From Myotis daubentonii (taxonomy: Eukaryota > Chordata > Mammalia > Chiroptera > Vespertilionidae), in assembly GCF_963259705.1 (NCBI RefSeq), contig NC_081842.1, positions 89,820,433-89,884,432 of the forward strand: a stretch of DNA of 64,000 nucleotides, written 5' to 3'. The notes below the pieces were generated by a model. The model saw nothing but the letters and a program-made list of their open reading frames with translations. It was not told where the DNA came from and did no database searches. Both the position numbers and the translations under genes were made by a program. Positions 9,898-53,813 of the stretch are shown one piece after another. Numbering within the stretch: the first letter of the stretch is position 1; the number at the start of each line of letters is the position of its first letter.

Positions 9898-10566
9898 CTA
9901 GAGGCCTGGTGCACGAATTTGTGCATGGGTCGGGTCCCTCAGGGTGGCCTACGGGGATCAGGCCAAAACCCGCAGTCCAACGCTGTCTGCCACTCCTGCC
10001 TGCCACTCCCGCTTATCCCAGCCCTGCTGCACCTGCTGTGGGCTCATGCCCAGTCCGTCCCGATCAGGAGTGCCCTGCATCTGGTGCCTGTCCCAAGGCG
10101 GGGCAGCGGGATGCGATTGGCCTTCCAGGCGGGCTGTGGGACGCCCTTGCTGGCCCAGGATCCAGATCCGTCCCGATGATGTTTGCGCTGGTTGTCGGGA
10201 GCCACTTGGTGGACACTTTTATATTATTTCTTCCTTACAGAGTGTCTAGGGAGGGGAAGCGGCCGCAGTGTCCAAGGCCAACTTCCAGGAGGCCAGAGGC
10301 ACTGTCGGGATCATGCCGGCAGTGTGGGTTCGTTGGTGCCTGCCCCGTTCTCTGGAGATTGGAACTGCAGGACTATTGAGGGAACTGCCGCCAGGCTGGT
10401 GGGGCACTGGGACAGATGGGTCAGTCAGCTAAGCTTTAGCAGCACACTGACCACCAGGGGCCAGCTCCTGCATTGAGCGTCTCTCCTTTGCTGGTCAGTG
10501 CACATCATAGCGACCAGTCGACCAGTTGTGTGGTCAGTCAGTCATTTAGGCTTTTATATATATAGA
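9898..10566 (-). mobile_element. Helitron abutting the previous Helitron
   Basis: CTAG lies at 9898-9901 with hairpin GTGCACGAATTTGTGCAT. The 5' end is at 10566 (TCTATATATATAAAAGCC on minus), with T at 10567. The left neighbour base is the terminal A of the preceding Helitron's 5' end (9897 on plus), so it sits exactly on that element's boundary, an A^T site. It is 669 bp and GC-rich inside, with no transposase coding. Confidence 0.88.
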
Positions 10567-27826: not shown

Positions 27827-29168
27827 TTAGAGGCCCAGTGCACAAAAATTTGTGCACTCCAGGGGGGTATCCCTCAGCCTGGCCTATGCCCTCTTGCAGT
27901 CTGGGACCCCTCAGAGGATGTCCACCTGCTGGCTTAGGCCTGCTCCCCCGGGGATCGGGCCCAAGCTGACAGTAAGACATCCCTCTGGCAGCCCGGCAGA
28001 CCTCGGGGGATGTCCACTTGCCAGCGGGGAGCAGGCCTAAGCTGCAGTGGGACATCTTTAATGGTGCTGAGGAGGCTGGAGAGGCTCCCACCACCACCGC
28101 TGTGCTGGCAGCCATCAGCCTGGCTTGTGGCTGAGCAGAGCTCCCCCTATGGGAGCACACTGATGACCAGGGGACAGCTCCTGCATTGAGCATCTGCCCA
28201 CTGGTGGTCAGTATGTGTCATAGTGACCAGTCATTCCCAGGTTTTCTGCTGTTAGGGTCAATTTGCATATTACCCTTTTATTATATAGGTGCACGGTTGG
28301 GGGCTGGCTGGTTTGCCCTGAAGGGTGTCCTGGATCAGGGTGGGGGTCCCGCTGGGGTGCCTGGCCAGCCTAGGTGAGGGGCTGATGGCTGTTTGCAGCT
28401 GGTCACACACCCTTATAGGTGGGGGTCCCCACTGGGGTGCCTGGCCAGCCTGGGTGAGGGGCAGATGGCTGTTTGCAGGCTGGTCAAGCCCCACCCAGTG
28501 GGGACCCTCACCCCATGGCAGTTTTGCCAGCCTGGATGAGGGGCTGATGGCTGTTTTCAGGCTGACCACACACCCTTTAGGGTGGGGGGTCCACACTGGG
28601 GTGCCTGGCCAGTATGGGTGAGGGGCTGAGGGTCGTTTTCAGGCTGGCCAAACCCCCCAGTGAAGGAAGCTCCCAACCTCTCCTTTTTTTCTTTTTTTTT
28701 ATTCTGGGATTTTTTTAAAATTAATTAATTATTTATTTTTTTAAAATTTTTATTCTGGGATTCATTTGCCTTCTATAATTGAAACTTTGTAGCCTTGAAT
28801 GGAGCTCAGAACCAGCCAGGGCGGGTGGGAAGCTTGGTTTCCTTTATTGCCAGAGGGAACCCAAGCCTCCTGCTTGCTCCAGCTCCGTGGCCACTGCAGG
28901 CTGAAAGCAGGTATCTGGGGTTTATTTATCTTCTATAATTGAAACTTCGTTTCCTGAGTGGAGCTCAGAGCCGGCTGCGGCAGGTGGGAAGCTTGGCTTC
29001 CTCCATCACTGGGGCAACCAAGCCTCCTGCTTGCTCCAGCTCAGTGGCTGCCGGCTGCCATCTTGGTTGCGTGAATTTGAATATAGTCGCTCTGATTGGC
29101 TTGTGGACTTGGCTTAATGCATAGCAAAGGTATGGTAAATTTGCATGTTTGTCTTTTATTAGTGTAGA
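27827..29168 (-). mobile_element. Composite two-module Helitron, copy 1
   Basis: The outer 3' end is TTAG (27827-27830, CTAG with one change) with hairpin GTGCACAAAAATTTGTGCAC. The outer 5' end is at 29168 (TCTACACTAATAAAAGAC on minus), flanked by A and T. Inside, at 28289/28290, a complete Helibat 5' end (ATTTGCATATTACCC, TTTTATTATATAGG) is fused to another Helitron's 3' region, which lacks the hairpin. The same fusion recurs at 35845/35846 and 38990/38991. Here about 12 bp covering ATAGAGGCCTGG are missing at the join. There is no coding capacity. Confidence 0.85.
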
Positions 29169-31367: not shown

Positions 31368-32001
31368 CTAGAGGCCCGGTGCACGAAATTTGTGAACAGG
31401 GGGTGTCCCTCAGCCCAGCCTGCACCCTCTCCAATCTGGGACCCCTTGAGGGGTGTACGACTGCCGAATGTCCCTATGAGATCGGGCCTAAACCAGCAGT
31501 CGGACATCCCTCTCACAATCAGGGACCACTGGCTCCTAATCACTTGCCTGCCTGCCTGCCTGCCTGCCTGATTGCCCCTAACCACTTCTGCCTGCCAGCC
31601 TCATCCCCCCCCAACTGCTCCCCTGCCAGCCTGATCACCCACAACTGCCCTCCCCTGCCATCCTGATTGCCTACAACTGCCCTCCCCTGCTGCAACCCAC
31701 CTCCTCCACTGGGACCCGCCTCCTCCACTGGGACCTGCCTCCTCCACTGGGACCCGCCTCCTCCCCGCAGGGCGGCAGAGATGCAAGGACCAGCCTCCTC
31801 CTTGCTGCACAGAGCCACAGGACCCCCAGGCCTCACTGTGCAAAGCGTCTGCCAGGCCCCGCCTCCGCTGTGCACGTGGCCATCTTGTGGCGGCCATCAT
31901 CTTGTGGCGGCCATCATCTTGTGGCGGCCATCATCTTGCGGCAACCATCATCTTGTGGCAGCATTGCATGCGAGGGCCACCTAGGGTTTTATTAGTACCG
32001 A
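31368..32001 (-). mobile_element. Helitron abutting the previous Helitron (doublet, second member)
   Basis: CTAG is at 31368-31371, directly next to the terminal A of the neighbouring Helitron's 5' end, with imperfect hairpin GTGCACGAAATTTGTGAAC. The 5' end at 32001 reads TCGGTACTAATAAAACCC on minus, with T at 32002. Internal repeats are (CCTG)n at about 31547-31570, CCTCCTCCACTGGGACC units (31706-31763) and GGCCATCATCTTGTGGC units (31873-31945). Confidence 0.87.
31873..31960 (-). repeat. 18-bp tandem repeat with GCCATC/ATCTTG motif
   Basis: About four to five units of the type ATCTTGTGGCGGCCATC close to the Helitron 5' end. On the minus strand each contains CAAGATG-like sequence, resembling part of a YY1 core. 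Unit divergence is low. Confidence 0.85.
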
Positions 32002-34645: not shown

Positions 34646-35381
34646 TGAGGATTAGAATCCATTTTGACAATCAATGAAGTCTAATTATTGAATGATTTAC
34701 TCCCCCAAGAAAAGTTTGAAGTATAAATTTATTTTAGCATCTATCACATGATTTTTAGAGTGTAAATTCAAAAGAGAATCAGTTGAATAACAGCTAAAAA
34801 AGGAGTGAAAAGGACTAATTATACACAATTTGAAAATATTTATTCAAATCTGATTACTTGTTAATTTTAATTTTTAGTGCAAAAAGGCCCCTGCCAATAT
34901 TTCAAATTCAAAGTGAGTATCTACTGTAGCTCAGTAACAGCTCACATCAAACTCTGCCCTTCATTGGTCATGTCCCAAATGTCTTTTATTTACCTCAAGT
35001 GAAACTGCCAGGTAATAACTGATTGTAAAAATATCATATTAGCTTTTTTATATTATAAATAAAATGAACAATAATCATGTACTTCAGTGGTTGAATAGGA
35101 GGTAGGTCAGAGTTGACATATAATTAAAAAATATATTATTTTTTAATTCTGGCTTCACAAACCTCTTTTCTTATAAAGGGAAAGCTTAATTTTTATATGA
35201 TTAAAGATCTTAGTAGTTGGTAAAGACATACCATGTTGTTAAAAATCATTTGTGACAGAATGGCAATAAACAAATGATGCCATTATATGGATAGCAATAC
35301 TAATAATGTAAACTAAATTACTTAGTGGAAATATCAGTTTAATGATCAAATGAGCAAAGACAAATATAATTTTATTTATTA
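34646..35381. other. AT-rich interval, nothing recognised
   Basis: No repeat or gene recognised. Confidence 0.4.
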
Positions 35382-36558
35382 CTAGAGGCCCAATGCACAA
35401 AAATTTGTGCACTCGGGGGGGGTGGTCCTTCAGCTCAGCCTGTGCCTTCTCACAGTCTGGGACCCCTCAGGGGATGACCACTTGCTGGCTTAGGCCTGCT
35501 CCCGGGGGATTGGGCCTAAGATGGCAATCAGACATCCCTCTGGCAGCCCAGCAGTGCTCGGGGGATGTCCACTTGCCAGCAGAGAGCAGGCCTAAACTGC
35601 AGTAGGACATCATTAGCGCTGCCGAGGAGGCAGGAAAGGCTCCCACCACCACCGCTGTACTGGCAGCCATCAGTCTGGCTTGTGGCTGAGCAGAGCTTCC
35701 AAAGTGAGAGCGCCCTGACCACCAGAAGGCAGCTCCTGCATTGAGCATCTTCCCCCTGGTGGTCAGTGTGTGTCATAGTGACCAGTCTTTCCCAGTCTTT
35801 CTGCTGTTAGGGTCAGTTTGCATATTACCCTTTTACTATATAGGATAGAGGTCTGGTGTACGGGTGGGGGCTGGCTGGTTAGCCCTGAAGGGTGTCCCGG
35901 ATCAGGGTGGGGGTCCCGCTGGGGTGCCTGGCCAGCTTAGGTGAGGGGCTGATGGCTGTTTGCATCAGGTCGCACTCCCTTCAGGGTGGGGGTCCCCTTT
36001 GGGGTGCCTGGCCAGTCTGGGTGAGGGGCTGAGGGCTATTTTCAGGCTGGTGGGTGACTGAAGCTCCCAACCTCTCCTTTTCTTCTTCTTTTTTTTTTTT
36101 ATTATTCTGGGATTTATTTACCTTCTATGGATGTCACTAGAGCTGAGAGCCGGCTCCAGCTCTGAGGCCCAGCTCCAGCTTGAGGTCTCAGCTGTTGAAA
36201 GCAGGTATCTGGGGTTTGTTTGGCTTCTATAATTGAAACATTGTTGCAGCTCCAGCTCTGAGACCTCGGCTGCTGAAAGCAGGTATCTGGGGTTTGTTTA
36301 GCTTCTATAATTGAAACATAGTTGCTTTCAGAGCTGTTGCTTTTGGAGCTATTGCTTTCAGGCTCAGAGCCGGGCACAGCAGGCAGGGAACCTTGGCTTC
36401 CTCCATAGCCGGGGCAACCAAGACTCATGTTCTCTTCAGCTGAGTGGCTGCCGGCTGCCATCTTGGTTGGCAATTAATTTGCATATCACCCTAATTAGCC
36501 AATGGGAAGTGTATCAGAGGTATGGTTAATTACCCTATTTGTCTTTTATTAGATAGGA
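35382..36558 (-). mobile_element. Composite two-module Helitron, copy 2
   Basis: The outer 3' end is CTAG (35382-35385) after A, with hairpin GTGCACAAATTTTTGTGCAT. The outer 5' end at 36558 reads TCCTATCTAATAAAAGAC on minus, with T at 36559. The internal join lies at 35845/35846, where TATATAGGA is followed directly by TAGAGGTCTGGTGTACGGG. The inner module's CTAG has lost its C and its hairpin is gone. The target-site flanks are at the outer ends only, so the pair inserted as one unit. Confidence 0.88.
36457..36503 (-). promoter_or_regulatory. YY1-like / octamer / CCAAT cassette in composite Helitron 5' module
   Basis: Within about 100 bp of the Helitron 5' end lie GCCATCTTGG (36457-36466), ATTTGCAT (36477-36484) and CCAAT (36499-36503). 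On the minus strand these read ATTGG, ATGCAAAT, CCAAGATGGC. The arrangement repeats in other Helitrons of the window. Whether it binds anything is not shown. Confidence 0.4.
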
Positions 36559-37024
36559 TATATACATATATAACTTTTAATTAATATTAATCATGATTTT
36601 TCTGTAATGTTCAATAATCAGTTCAGCTCTCTATAAATTAACTATTCTGACTTGTCTCACACCATATGTTCTTACATATTGCTAAAATTAACCAAAAGAA
36701 TTTCAATCTATTAAATTGCTTTAAAAACTATTAGTGAATGCTTCCATATAACAACTACTTAATATACTAACTCCCTATTGAATGCCTAAATTACATATGC
36801 TAAAAAAGTAAAAACATTTGCTTTTTCTGAAAAAATTCTTGAGATTTTTTAAGTTTGTGAATTAGCTAACTTAAAATTCTATTTCAAAGACTTTTAAATT
36901 CACAGATCTAAAAGAGGTTATTTTGTCTGTTTTACACTGGAATTCAGCCAGCCCTAAATCAGGGTTTCTTCCTTGACATGATATTCAAAGTTTATATTTT
37001 TCAAATATAATAAATATCTTTTGT
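36559..37024. other. AT-rich interval, nothing recognised
   Basis: No repeat or gene recognised. Confidence 0.4.
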
Positions 37025-37724: not shown

Positions 37725-37970
37725 CTAGAGGCCCGATGCATGAAAATTCATATAAGAGTAGGCCTTCCTTTCCTCGGCTGCCTGCACTGGCTTCCCTCCA
37801 GCACCCGGGGCTTGGGCTGCTGGCACTGCCTTCCCATCAGTACCCGGTACCCGGGCTTGCTTCCTCTAGCCACCAGCAGGCACCCAGGACCCAGCTGGCT
37901 TCTCTCCAGCCTTGGCTTTGTCAGGAAGACGTCTGGTCTAATTAGCATATTACCCTTTTATTATTATAGA
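37725..37970 (-). mobile_element. Short Helitron abutting composite copy 3
   Basis: CTAG is at 37725-37728 after A, with diverged hairpin GATGCATGAAAATTCATAT. The 5' end at 37970 reads TCTATAATAATAAAAGGG on minus, then TAATATGC. The 246-bp body has GCACCCGGGGCTTGG-type short repeats. Its 5' boundary is exactly where the next Helitron's 3' end lies. Confidence 0.82.
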
Positions 37971-39273
37971 CCAGAGGCCCAGTGCACAAAAATTTGTGCC
38001 CTCGGGGGGGAGGAGGGGTCCCTCAGCCCGGCCTGTGCCCTCTCGCAGTCTGGGACCCCTCGGGAGATAATGACCTGCTGGCTTAGGCCCTCTCCCGGGT
38101 GGCAGAGGGCAGGCCCAATCCCTAGGTGCAGCCCCTGGTCGGGCTCAGAGCAGGGCCGATTGGGGAGTTGGGGCGCCGCCCCTTGTCATGCACAGAGCAG
38201 GGCAGAATGGGAGGTTGCGATGCCACCCTCAGTCACGCTCAGGGTAGGGCCAATTGGAGGGTTGGGGCACCACCCCCTGTCACACTCAAGGCAGGGTCGA
38301 TGGGGAGGTTGCGGTGCACACCCCCGTCACACACAGAGCAGGGCCAACCAGGGGGTTGGGGCGCTGCCCCCTGTCATGCGCAGAGCAGGGCCCATCAGGG
38401 GGGTTGGGGCTCCATACCCTGTCATGCACAGAGCAGGGCCCATCAGGGGGTTGGGGAGCTCCCCCCTGTCACTCACAGAGCAGGGCCGATCAGGGGGTTG
38501 AGGAGCTCTTCCCTGTCACTCACAGAGTAGGGCCGATAGGGGAGTTGGGGCACTGTCCCCTGTCACCCACAGAGCAGGGCAGATCAGGGGGTTGGGGAAC
38601 CACCCTCTATCACCCACAGAGCAGGGCCGATCAGGGGGTTGGGGCACTGCCACTGTCACACTCAGGGCAGGGCCGATGGGGAGGTTATGGCTCTACCCCA
38701 TCACACACAGAGCAGGGTCCATGGGGTGGGGGTTGGGGCACTGCACCCTGTCACAGACACAGCCGCAGGGCAATCATGGGGTTGGGAAGCTCCCCCTATC
38801 AGGCACAGAGCAGGCAGATCAGGGGGTTGGGGCACCTTCCCCTGTCATGATCAGAGTAGGGCGGATAGGGAGGTTGTGGCCCCGCCCCCTGTCACACACA
38901 GAGCCGCATGGCGATCAGGGGGTTTGGGCATTGCCTCCTGTCATGCTGATCCCGGTGCTGGGAGGCATATTACCCTTTTACTATATAGGATAGAGGCCTG
39001 GTGCATGGGTTGGGGCCGGCTGGTTTGCCCTGAAGGGTGTCCTGGATCAGGGTGGGAGTCCCCACTGGAGTGCCTGGCCAGCCTGGGTGAGGGGATGATG
39101 GCTGTTTGCAGCTGGTCACACACCCTTCATGGTGGGGGTCCCCACTGGGGTGCCTGGCCAGTCTGGGTGAGGGGCTGAGGACTGTTTTCAGGCTGGCGAG
39201 TGACTGAAGCTTCCAACCGCTCCTTTTTTTCTTTTTTTTTATTCTGGGCCATGTTTCTCTTTTATTAGATAGG
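37971..39273 (-). mobile_element. Composite two-module Helitron, copy 3 (minisatellite variant)
   Basis: The outer 3' end is CCAG (37971-37974, CTGG on minus instead of CTAG) with hairpin GTGCACAAAAATTTGTGC. The outer 5' end is at 39273 (TTTATTAGATAGG on plus), with T at 39274. The internal join at 38990/38991 reads CTATATAGGATAGAGGCC, as in copy 2, and the inner module again lacks the hairpin (GGTGCATGGGTTGGGG). The 3' module interior is a 47-bp minisatellite rather than the sequence in copies 1 and 2. Long plus-strand frames here come from the minisatellite. Confidence 0.86.
38147..38945 (-). repeat. 47-bp minisatellite inside Helitron
   Basis: About 17 units with core AGAGCAGGGCCGATCAGGGG then GTTGGGG and a CCCCCTGTCACAC segment. 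Unit starts at 38147, 38194 and 38241 give a 47-bp period. It is the inverted counterpart of 1-560. All three plus frames stay largely open across it because 47 is not a multiple of 3 and stops are scarce. This is not evidence of a protein. Confidence 0.93.
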
Positions 39274-39845
39274 TACTAGAGCTGTGATGCTCTTGTCTTC
39301 CTGTTACAGTCTTCTGGGTTCCCTACATGTATGTCCCTAGGGCCTTTTATAGGTCCCAAGAAAAAATTCTGCTAAGTCAGTATTCACTTTACCAATGGAA
39401 CGGGCTAGTGATTTTAATAGGTAATACACATTTTCATAGTTAACATTCTCAGGCATGCCTTAGCTAATGCAACATGCTGATGAGTTTTCAATCATGTGAA
39501 GTTAATTTCTGTAGAGAGCCTGGGGAATGACATCAGGTTTCATGAGTAAATCTGCTAAGAAATGAAAGACCAGTACATGAAAACTTTTCCTCAATTTAGC
39601 ACTGCAATGGCCTTTGATGATCACTTAGAGCTCTGCTCATGCAAGGAAAGTAATATTCAGAAACCAAGTTATATGACTTTGAGTGGGATAAATAATTCAA
39701 AGAAAAGCAGTGTATGGCACCTTCCTGTTCTAAGCTAAGGTCTCTCACCATTAATAATAACAATGATGATCTAATTAATAACATTAATAATTATCAGATA
39801 TTGAAAAATCTTATTTAAAATAGATGTTTTTCTATTATATGAATA
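39274..39845. other. Unassigned sequence
   Basis: No repeat family or exon recognised. Confidence 0.4.
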
Positions 39846-42495: not shown

Positions 42496-43325
42496 TTAGT
42501 TAAGTTTACTCCTAGGTATTTTAATTTTTTTGTTGCAATGGTAAGTGGGATTGTTTTTTGTTTGTTTGTTTGTTTGTTTTTTTGTTTCTCTTTCTGTGAG
42601 TTCATTATTGGTGTATAAAAAAGTCATAGACTTATGGGTGTTAATTTTGTATCCTGCTACATTGCCAACTTCATTTATTAAGTCTAGTAGATTTTTGGTG
42701 GAGTCTTTAAGATTTTCTATGTACAATATTATGTCCTCTGCAAATAATGACAATTTTACATCTTTTCCAATTTGGATGCCTTTTATTTCCTTTTCTTATC
42801 TGATCACTATGGCAGTACTATGTCAAACAGGAGTGGTGAAAGTGGGCATCCCTGTCTCGTTCCTGTTCTTAGGAGAAATGACTTTAGTTTTTGCCCATTG
42901 AGTATGGTGTTGGCTGTAGGTTTGTCATATAAGGCTTTTGTTATTTTGGGGTATGATCCCTCTATTCCCACTTTGCTGAGAGTTTTTATCAAGAAAGGGT
43001 GTTGGATATTGTCAAATACTTTCTCTGCATCAATTGATATGATTATGTGATTTTTGTCTCTCAATCTGTTTATGTGATGTAACATGTTTGTTGATTTACA
43101 GATACTGTACCAGCCTTGCATCCCTGGAATAAATCCCACTTGGTCATGGTTTATGATCTTTCTCATGTAATGCTGGATCTGATTTGCTAGAATTTTTTTG
43201 AGGATTTTAGAATCTATGTTCATCAGGAATATTGGCCTGTAATTATCTTTCTTTGCAGTGTCTTTATCTGGCTTTGGAATTAGGGTAATGCTGGCTTCAT
43301 AGAAAGAGCTTGGAAGTGTGCACAT
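42496..43325 (-). pseudogene. L1 ORF2 reverse transcriptase remnant
   Basis: The minus frame from 43325 carries [71 protein letters not shown] and [16 protein letters not shown], the finger and palm blocks of L1 RT. A stop near 42807 ends this frame. The catalytic box continues in 42496-42753 as [10 protein letters not shown], with Glu (codon 42736-42738) where most L1s have the first Asp of FADD. With no ORF1, no endonuclease domain and internal stops, it cannot be active. Confidence 0.93.
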
Positions 43326-53122: not shown

Positions 53123-53813
53123 TCAACACTAATAAAAGAGAAAAATGGTAATTGGCGTACGACGATACCCTTTTCATTGGCTAATCAGGGCTATATGCAA
53201 ATTAACTGCCAACTAAGATTGGCAGTTAACTGCCAACTAAGATTGGCAGTTAACTGCCAACAAGATGGCGGTTAATTTGCATATGTAGGCACAATGCAGG
53301 GAGGCGAAAGGGAAAGCAGGAAGAAACCCCCTGCCACTGACAGTGATCGGAAACCCAGGGGGGAGCTAAGAGCTGGGGGGCAGGGCAAAGGCGGCCCTGG
53401 GGCCACCTTTGCCCTGCCTCCCAGCCATGATTGGAGAATCAGGTGCCTTTTCCGCCCTGGCCAGTGATAGCAGGAAGTAGGGGTGGAGCCAGCGATGGGA
53501 GCCAGCGATGGGAGCCAGCGATGGGTGGAGCCAGCAAGGTCGAAGCTAGCAGTCCCAGGAGCTAGGGGACCCTTGCCTGGGCCTAAAGCGAAGCCCACGA
53601 TCGTGGGGCCGCTGCAGCTGCAGGTCCCCACTGCCCGGGCCGGACGCCTAGGCCAGAGGCGTCAGGCCTGGGCAAGGGGCCGATCCTGCGATTGGAGGGT
53701 GATGGGGGTCAACGCCTGAGGGCTCCCAGTATGTGAGAGGGGGCAGGCTGGGCTGAGGGACACTCCCCCCCCACACACACCCAGTGCACGAATTTCGTGC
53801 ACCGGGCCCCTAG
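53123..53813 (+). mobile_element. Helitron with promoter-like 5' cassette
   Basis: The 5' end TCAACACTAATAAAAGAG follows A at 53122. The 3' end is the near-perfect hairpin GTGCACGAATTTCGTGCAC (53784-53802), then CTAG (53810-53813) and T. It is the same family as the inverted copy at 62159-63431: the first 170 bp and the 3' region match closely. The 24-bp unit containing TTGGCAGTTAACTGCCAA is duplicated here (53219-53236 and 53243-53260) but single in the other copy. Only one unit of the 80-bp palindromic repeat is present. Confidence 0.92.
53176..53282 (+). promoter_or_regulatory. CCAAT / octamer / YY1-like cassette in Helitron
   Basis: ATTGG (53176-53180), ATGCAAAT (53195-53202), AAGATGGCGG (53262-53271) and ATTTGCAT (53275-53282) lie within 160 bp of the 5' end. 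These match consensus sites for NF-Y, POU/Oct and YY1, a combination common in TATA-less promoters. The octamer-CCAAT order is conserved in the 58.8 kb and 63.3 kb copies. Activity is not shown. Confidence 0.4.

Follow-up and report, generated by a model that had tools for sequence, protein, structure and literature searches.

Here we describe a mobile element composed of two Helitrons, located on the minus strand of a 64,000-nucleotide stretch of the Myotis daubentonii genome (C4:89820433-89884432, hereafter the window), together with its relatives in this one genome of 2.13 Gb. The element very probably represents a large non-autonomous family of the Helibat type, founded by bypass of a broken inner terminator, in which two once separate Helitrons are fused into a single unit. 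The 5' and 3' modules are called H1 and H2, respectively, and their coordinates are reported in Table 1. Judged by its ends (5' TC, 3' CTAG of the CTRR type and a hairpin some 11 bases before the outer 3' end) and by its insertion between A and T with no duplication of the target, the composite can be classed as a non-autonomous Helibat-type Helitron; RepHel would have to act in trans, since 1177 bp are too short to encode the Helraiser protein, 1,496 amino acids long according to PMC4778049.

The original prediction, made on this stretch, placed a direct joining of two Helitrons at 35845/35846, and reading of the letters confirmed both the join and the coordinates. H1 opens with TCCTATCTAATAAAAG at 36558 on the minus strand, where it is preceded by A at 36559, and closes with ...CCCGTACACCAGACCTCTA, its last base being 35846; H2, TCCTATATAGTAAAAGG, begins at the following base, 35845, so that the minus strand reads ..CACCAGACCTCTA/TCCTATATAGTAAAAGGG, the slash marking here and below the boundary between adjoining sequences. 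The inner CTAG does lack one base, as had been proposed; the base originally indicated as C is, read along the strand of the element itself, the terminal G. At the outer 3' end, H2 terminates with GTGCACAAATTTTTGTGCATTGGGCCTCTAG (35412-35382), and T follows at 35381: the hairpin, the CTAG and the flanking A and T, described as intact, are indeed all present. DNA folding of the last 60 bases of H1 yields no stem at the terminator position and is no better than shuffled sequences (z -0.18), while those of H2 fold into a stem of 8 bp, the z of -1.82 being modest. In five other ends z ranged from -7.13 to +1.17; as it discriminates poorly, hairpin calls rest on the letters.

The same join recurs throughout the genome. 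Its consensus 30-mer, CACCCGTGCACCAGGCCTCTATCCTATATA, is found in 2886 exact copies (1448 forward, 1438 reverse), against none for the reversed control: this figure is a lower bound, as the three copies of the composite in the window (A, B and C in Table 1) carry changes within the 30-mer and are hence uncounted. Copies A and C share an identical junction 32-mer (35851-35820 and 38996-38965), i.e. two exact matches within the window where 0.00 are expected from shuffles. A genome search with the whole element found the join in 40 out of 40 scored loci (L009-L048, fetched with their flanks), these being the best 40 of 14863 first-look candidates; the best 40 were likewise scored out of 9845 for H1 only and out of 6532 for H2 only. 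When H1 alone was used as a query, omitting its last 64 bases, all 30 loci retrieved were seen to run into the join, 19 of them already included in the first 40; the same join was reached by all ten lower-ranked loci, at 80-85% identity. In L066 an extra H1 repeat shifts it downstream. Conversely, with H2 as a query and its first 65 bases omitted, a hairpinless H1 end was found to precede each of the 36 loci fetched, the other four of the 40 listed having been included in earlier sets.

After removal of overlaps, 97 distinct composite places could be tallied, and one common breakpoint was found in all of them: 91 read CTA/, five differ from this by one base and one (L102) has lost a few bases across the join. 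Separate fusions with differing breakpoints, which the original prediction had named as the contrary case, were not found among them. A CTAG is read across the join in L031 only, by means of a T-to-G change, and is missing from the other 96. The predicted loss of the inner hairpin extends from the window copy to the whole set: the last 60 bases of H1 contain a two-arm hairpin in none of the 97 places, the longest stem being 5 bp, while the same test recognized the hairpin in 11 out of 11 positive controls, described below. Stem length alone would be a poor test, as two of these controls score just 4 bp. Nesting of H2 deep inside H1 was rejected, H1 sequence being absent 3' of H2 in the copies read. 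Scans of viral contigs, genome contigs and phages with the junction or H1 gave no match, a result of little weight, as these collections are without bat genomes. At least two H2 bodies occur among the composites, CAAACTGACC.. and CCTCCCAGCACC.., the latter in copy C, L155, L157 and eight of the loci L161-L180, which points to an old founder that kept evolving.

Besides the number of join copies, independent outer A/T sites and correlated distances of the two modules support the claim that the composite is a mobile two-module element. The 5' flanking base is A in 37 out of 40 composites and the 3' flanking base is T in 38, this being the outcome of the outer-site check which had been suggested along with the copy count. 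A 5' TC is found in 33 of the 40, and a 3' CTAG in 36, with CTAA in two more; close to the outer end, a perfect stem of at least 6 bp is present in 34. Comparison of the 200-base flanks of these copies revealed 49 pairs with some match, none of which matched on both sides, as duplicated loci should. When the 40 joined flank pairs were compared to the available sequence, eight aligned across the join, most of them to different Helitrons, to simple repeats or to their own locus. Apparently clean, empty paralogous sites were recognized for L035 (window 17754-17466, 73% over 300 columns, with small gaps elsewhere) and for L023 (window 42814-42923, 73% over 111 columns), neither alignment having a gap at the join. 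Pairwise distances in H1 and in H2 correlate across the 40 copies (Mantel r 0.44, p 0.0005, 2000 permutations), as expected if the modules travel together. In these copies, the mean non-CpG Kimura two-parameter distance to the consensus is 0.045 for H1 and 0.031 for H2; with a bat neutral rate of about 2.4e-9 per site per year, this would correspond, very roughly, to 13-19 million years.

Versions of the H1 3' terminus with the hairpin in place, defined by the pattern GCCCCCACCCRTGCACN{6,9}TGCACCAGG, were found at 11 genome places (L181-L191), each read with about 75 bases downstream. Nine end with CTAG and two with CTAA, and the next base is T in nine and C in two. Nothing recognisably Helitron lies downstream of eight of them; L183 and L189, the two ending with CTAA, adjoin the 5' end of another Helibat, and L185 is a few bases away from one. 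The CTA/TCC join is found in none of the 11. The Helibat next to L189 is 83% like H2 in its first 54 bases (CTAA/TCC..), and this locus possibly resembles the arrangement preceding the fusion, the hairpin being still present. The terminus of L185 differs from that of H1 by 12 bases, GTGCACGAATTC, between two GTGCAC copies. As GTGCAC is its own reverse complement, the hairpin arms double as direct repeats, and slippage could thus remove one arm along with the loop. A near-identical terminus is hence available both with and without the hairpin, as a test pair for the termination model. A close hairpin-bearing relative of the H1 3' end was also looked for among 56 hairpin-bearing ends of the loci fetched, giving weak or terminal matches only.

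Hairpinless H1 ends followed by G, found at 64 genome places, were similarly examined, and 20 were read. Fifteen read CTA/GCC.., corresponding to a T-to-G change of the common join, with H2 next; one (L176) has a short deletion. In three (L166, L169 and L178) the sequence is CTAG/TCTATATA, then H2. In the remaining one, L174, the hairpinless H1 end is followed by the 5' end of some other Helibat (CTAGCTATACTAATAAAAG), which may be another fusion partner or have taken the place of H2. A hairpinless H1 end stopping on its own was not observed among the ends read.

From these data we infer the order of insertion, the 12-base deletion as the route of hairpin loss and a founding event in which the inner end was bypassed. 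Most likely, H1 inserted at the A/T made by the left flanking A of a resident H2 and the first T of the latter, giving rise to a head-to-tail pair. Its terminator would have been already broken, or would have broken then, through removal of 12 bases (one arm and the loop) between the GTGCAC copies, the last G of CTAG being also absent; termination of a hairpinless H1 one base early, on landing at the A/T of H2, could account for the missing G in one step. The transposase, starting at the H1 5' end and finding an inner terminator without its hairpin, would have run past it and stopped at the intact hairpin and CTAG of H2, so that the two modules moved as one unit. Such a founder would then have amplified to thousands of copies and diversified.

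Some points weigh against this account. The A before the TC of H2 is ambiguous, as it may be either the H1's own (CTA) or the old target A of H2, in which case H1 lost two bases; the A/T signature at the inner join, whose presence had been proposed as evidence to the contrary, is for this reason equivocal. L166, L169 and L178 could be cases of a kept G and one lost C, or of two substitutions. In L189 a hairpin-bearing end abuts an H2-like Helibat, in what looks like an ordinary tandem within the approximately 75 downstream bases read. The likeness of the hairpin-bearing relatives to H1 concerns the terminus alone, the body being excluded. Neither solo H1 nor solo H2 was found among the loci read, and intermediates and order of events are thus unseen. 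Close copies are over-represented among the scored loci, where divergent members are under-sampled; a single founder seems to have given rise to the hairpinless copies, and the association between hairpin loss and read-through hence amounts to one evolutionary event; and all of the evidence comes from one genome.

Different origins of the join were also considered. Bypass might have come first, with the hairpin intact, given that Helraiser can skip an intact end; hairpin and G would have decayed later, before amplification, because an internal terminator cuts the yield of the full composite. Absence of the hairpin from all 97 places, which dates its loss to the root of the family as sampled, or earlier, suits this order of events, as does L189, where a hairpin-bearing H1-type end sits directly upstream of an H2-like 5' end; yet no composite bearing the hairpin was found among the same 97 places, nor the CTA/TCC join in any of the 11 hairpin-bearing termini, and we regard such a sequence of events as rather unlikely. 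The join might also have arisen with no transposase involved, either through template switching or because a few bases were deleted between neighbouring Helitrons, the product just happening to be mobile. At least one base is indeed missing at the join, or two (AG) if the preceding A is the old target of H2, and copy B shows that deletions do happen there. However, H2 begins at its first base and H1 stops just one or two bases short of its end, and a random deletion would rarely fall so near to both ends, unless the two were already head to tail: this makes a transposase-free origin improbable.

Two further explanations deserve hardly any credit. Exact Helibat 5' borders make up 16 of 86 composite 3' flanks, as detailed below, and ordinary CTAG/TC tandems with a hairpin are found on the minus strand of the window, at 9898/9897 and, with one arm mismatched, at 31368/31367; two Helitrons might have come to lie side by side independently at many places, Helibat 5' borders being favoured targets. 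Independent pairs would, however, retain CTAG/TC and the hairpin and mix many partners, while a single join, hairpinless and devoid of the G, recurs 2886 times, and module distances correlate. The H2-only search, the join count and the 97-place hairpin tally refute repeated side-by-side insertion for this family, and we hold it to be extremely improbable. Even less credible is a tandem dimer of one element, generated by rolling-circle replication: CTAG/TC circle junctions are reported for Helraiser (PMC4778049), but H1 and H2 are unlike at both ends and in the body, and a self-dimer is refuted by this difference.

Fusion by terminator bypass would match the read-through model published for Helraiser, the system to which the original prediction had correctly attributed read-through upon loss of the hairpin. 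In this model, a pause of the helicase at the hairpin allows CTAG to be nicked and, when the hairpin is absent, the transposase proceeds to another terminator; in Helraiser deprived of the hairpin, a downstream cassette was carried in at least 36% of the events (PMC4778049). The Helibats of vesper bats share TC/CTAG ends, a 3' hairpin and an A/T target (PMC4778049), and the composite has in common with Helraiser/Helibat1 these ends, this target and the hairpin terminator (Grabundzija 2016, PMC4778049). There, terminator loss leads to downstream transduction and new 3' ends, with one natural exemplar bypassing the CTAG of a palindrome-less terminus; here, in contrast, a second Helitron supplies the new 3' end, and the fused element has been amplified to thousands of copies, rather than being a single case or a cell-culture event. 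Among 395 copies of Myotis HelibatN541, HelibatN542 and HelibatN580, 39 are reported to have de novo 3' ends, including insertion beside another Helitron and one case of bypass, while a fused and amplified family of the present kind is not described in the available portion of that report (PMC4778049).

Head-to-tail Helitrons are known from maize and Myotis (PMC2267711, citing Pritham and Feschotte 2007), the maize pair being ascribed to successive insertions and those of Myotis being suggested as tandem repeats: their joins keep CTAG, whereas that of the composite is defective and recurs as a unit. Tandem Helitrons of Fusarium and other fungi, for which insertion and rolling-circle origins are weighed by the authors, belong to a different Helitron group with a different target, and no fused family devoid of a terminator is described in the accessible part of PMC5148889. 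Read-through as a model, Helitrons lying side by side and one natural case of bypass have thus already been published, but a fused and amplified two-Helitron family was not found in the literature searched, which included the available portions of PMC4778049, PMC2267711, PMC5876387, PMC5148889 and PMC4971623. It may well be that the composite family is catalogued in Repbase/Dfam as one subfamily, its bipartite origin unremarked. The family would represent a natural, genome-scale outcome of the terminator-loss read-through seen in cell culture and in one natural copy.

Composites themselves often land next to other Helibats. According to a word list chosen after both sets were seen, a Helibat lies directly 3' of the composite in 13 out of 39 flanks of a first set (L022, lacking a clean 3' end, was omitted) and in 10 out of 47 of a second one. 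Altogether, in 23 of the 86 3' flanks (L009-L078 and L115-L150) the insertion point coincides with the 5' end of another Helibat or falls among its first bases, and in 16, eight in each set, it is exactly at the TC border: compared with about 15 recognisable Helibat 5' ends, counted by eye, per 11468 A/T sites on both strands of the window (about 0.13%), this is a large excess of exact 5'-border hits. In the remaining targets, TATAAAA- or TAATAAAA-type words tend to occur at +1..+18. A TATAAAA-type motif, written after the first set and tested on the second, was present in 9 out of 35 targets, where AT-matched sites of the window would lead one to expect 2.16 (P 0.0001). Likeness in register to the left end was weak for the non-Helibat targets of the held-out set (5.65, shuffle mean 5.25, sd 0.26), and the match without the first three bases was modest, being reached by 118 of 5000 shuffles. 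Among the target tests, the TATAAAA-type motif alone held up clearly.

Helraiser targets are AT-rich, most strongly on the 3' side, likeness to the left end being unnamed in the available text of PMC4778049; the same source describes an AT-rich region of the left end near the cleavage site, discussed in relation to DNA melting, which could explain both the AT-rich targets and the likeness to the left end. It is tentatively conceivable, though on balance doubtful, that a transposase favouring left-end-like targets, with a preference for resident 5' borders, and a hairpin easily lost by slippage make module-by-module accretion a routine source of new families. The present case suggests such a route for module gain, in which one Helitron inserts at the left end of another and slippage between the arms of the terminator may delete it.

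Table 1. Helitron features of the window discussed in the text
Feature	Positions	Strand	Remarks
Composite two-module Helitron, copy A (locus L048)	35382..36558	minus	read directly; near full-length relatives genome-wide
Module H1 (5' module)	35846..36558	minus	5' TC at 36558, 3' end ..CTCTA
H1 inner 3' end, without hairpin and without final G of CTAG	35846..35864	minus	letters and DNA fold
Module H2 (3' module)	35382..35845	minus	read directly
H2 internal 5' end, intact, TCCTATATAGTAAAAG	35830..35845	minus	read directly
Outer terminator hairpin, intact, GTGCACAAATTTTTGTGCAT	35393..35412	minus	letters and DNA fold
Outer CTAG 3' end	35382..35385	minus	flanking T at 35381
5' flanking A of the target site (T on the plus strand)	36559..36559	minus	read directly
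Copy B of the composite	27827..29168	minus	join at about 28289 with a further 12-bp deletion; outer end CTAA, hairpin present
Copy C of the composite	37971..39275	minus	H1 internally deleted (to 38991); join as in copy A; H2 with type II body
Third Helitron adjoining the 3' end of copy C	37725..37970	minus	TCTATAATAATAAAAG .. CTAG, flanking T

The outer end of copy C is CTGG, and its hairpin has one arm mismatched; its type II H2 body (38964-38100, minus strand) appears by eye as a run of diverged, GC-rich, minisatellite-like units. On the minus strand of H1, at about 36504-36457, words resembling promoter motifs are found, which we take to be CCAAT, on one strand, a ATGCAAAT-like word and CCAAGATGGC; a short open reading frame is also present in the consensus. 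Comparison of a 32-residue peptide, from a by-eye consensus reading, with solved structures gave nothing convincing as to gene capture by H1 (best E 0.98), and the window yielded no match when screened for tRNAs and against Rfam. Two single-module Helitrons of the window, at 63431-62159 (minus) and 53123-53813 (plus), combine an H1-like 5' end with an H2-like, hairpin-bearing 3' end. Finally, the initial bases are doubled in one Helibat 5' end, TCCTATATAATCCTATATAATAAAAG, which lies at about 3979-3950 on the minus strand of the window, and a similar doubling is seen in the 3' flank of L037.
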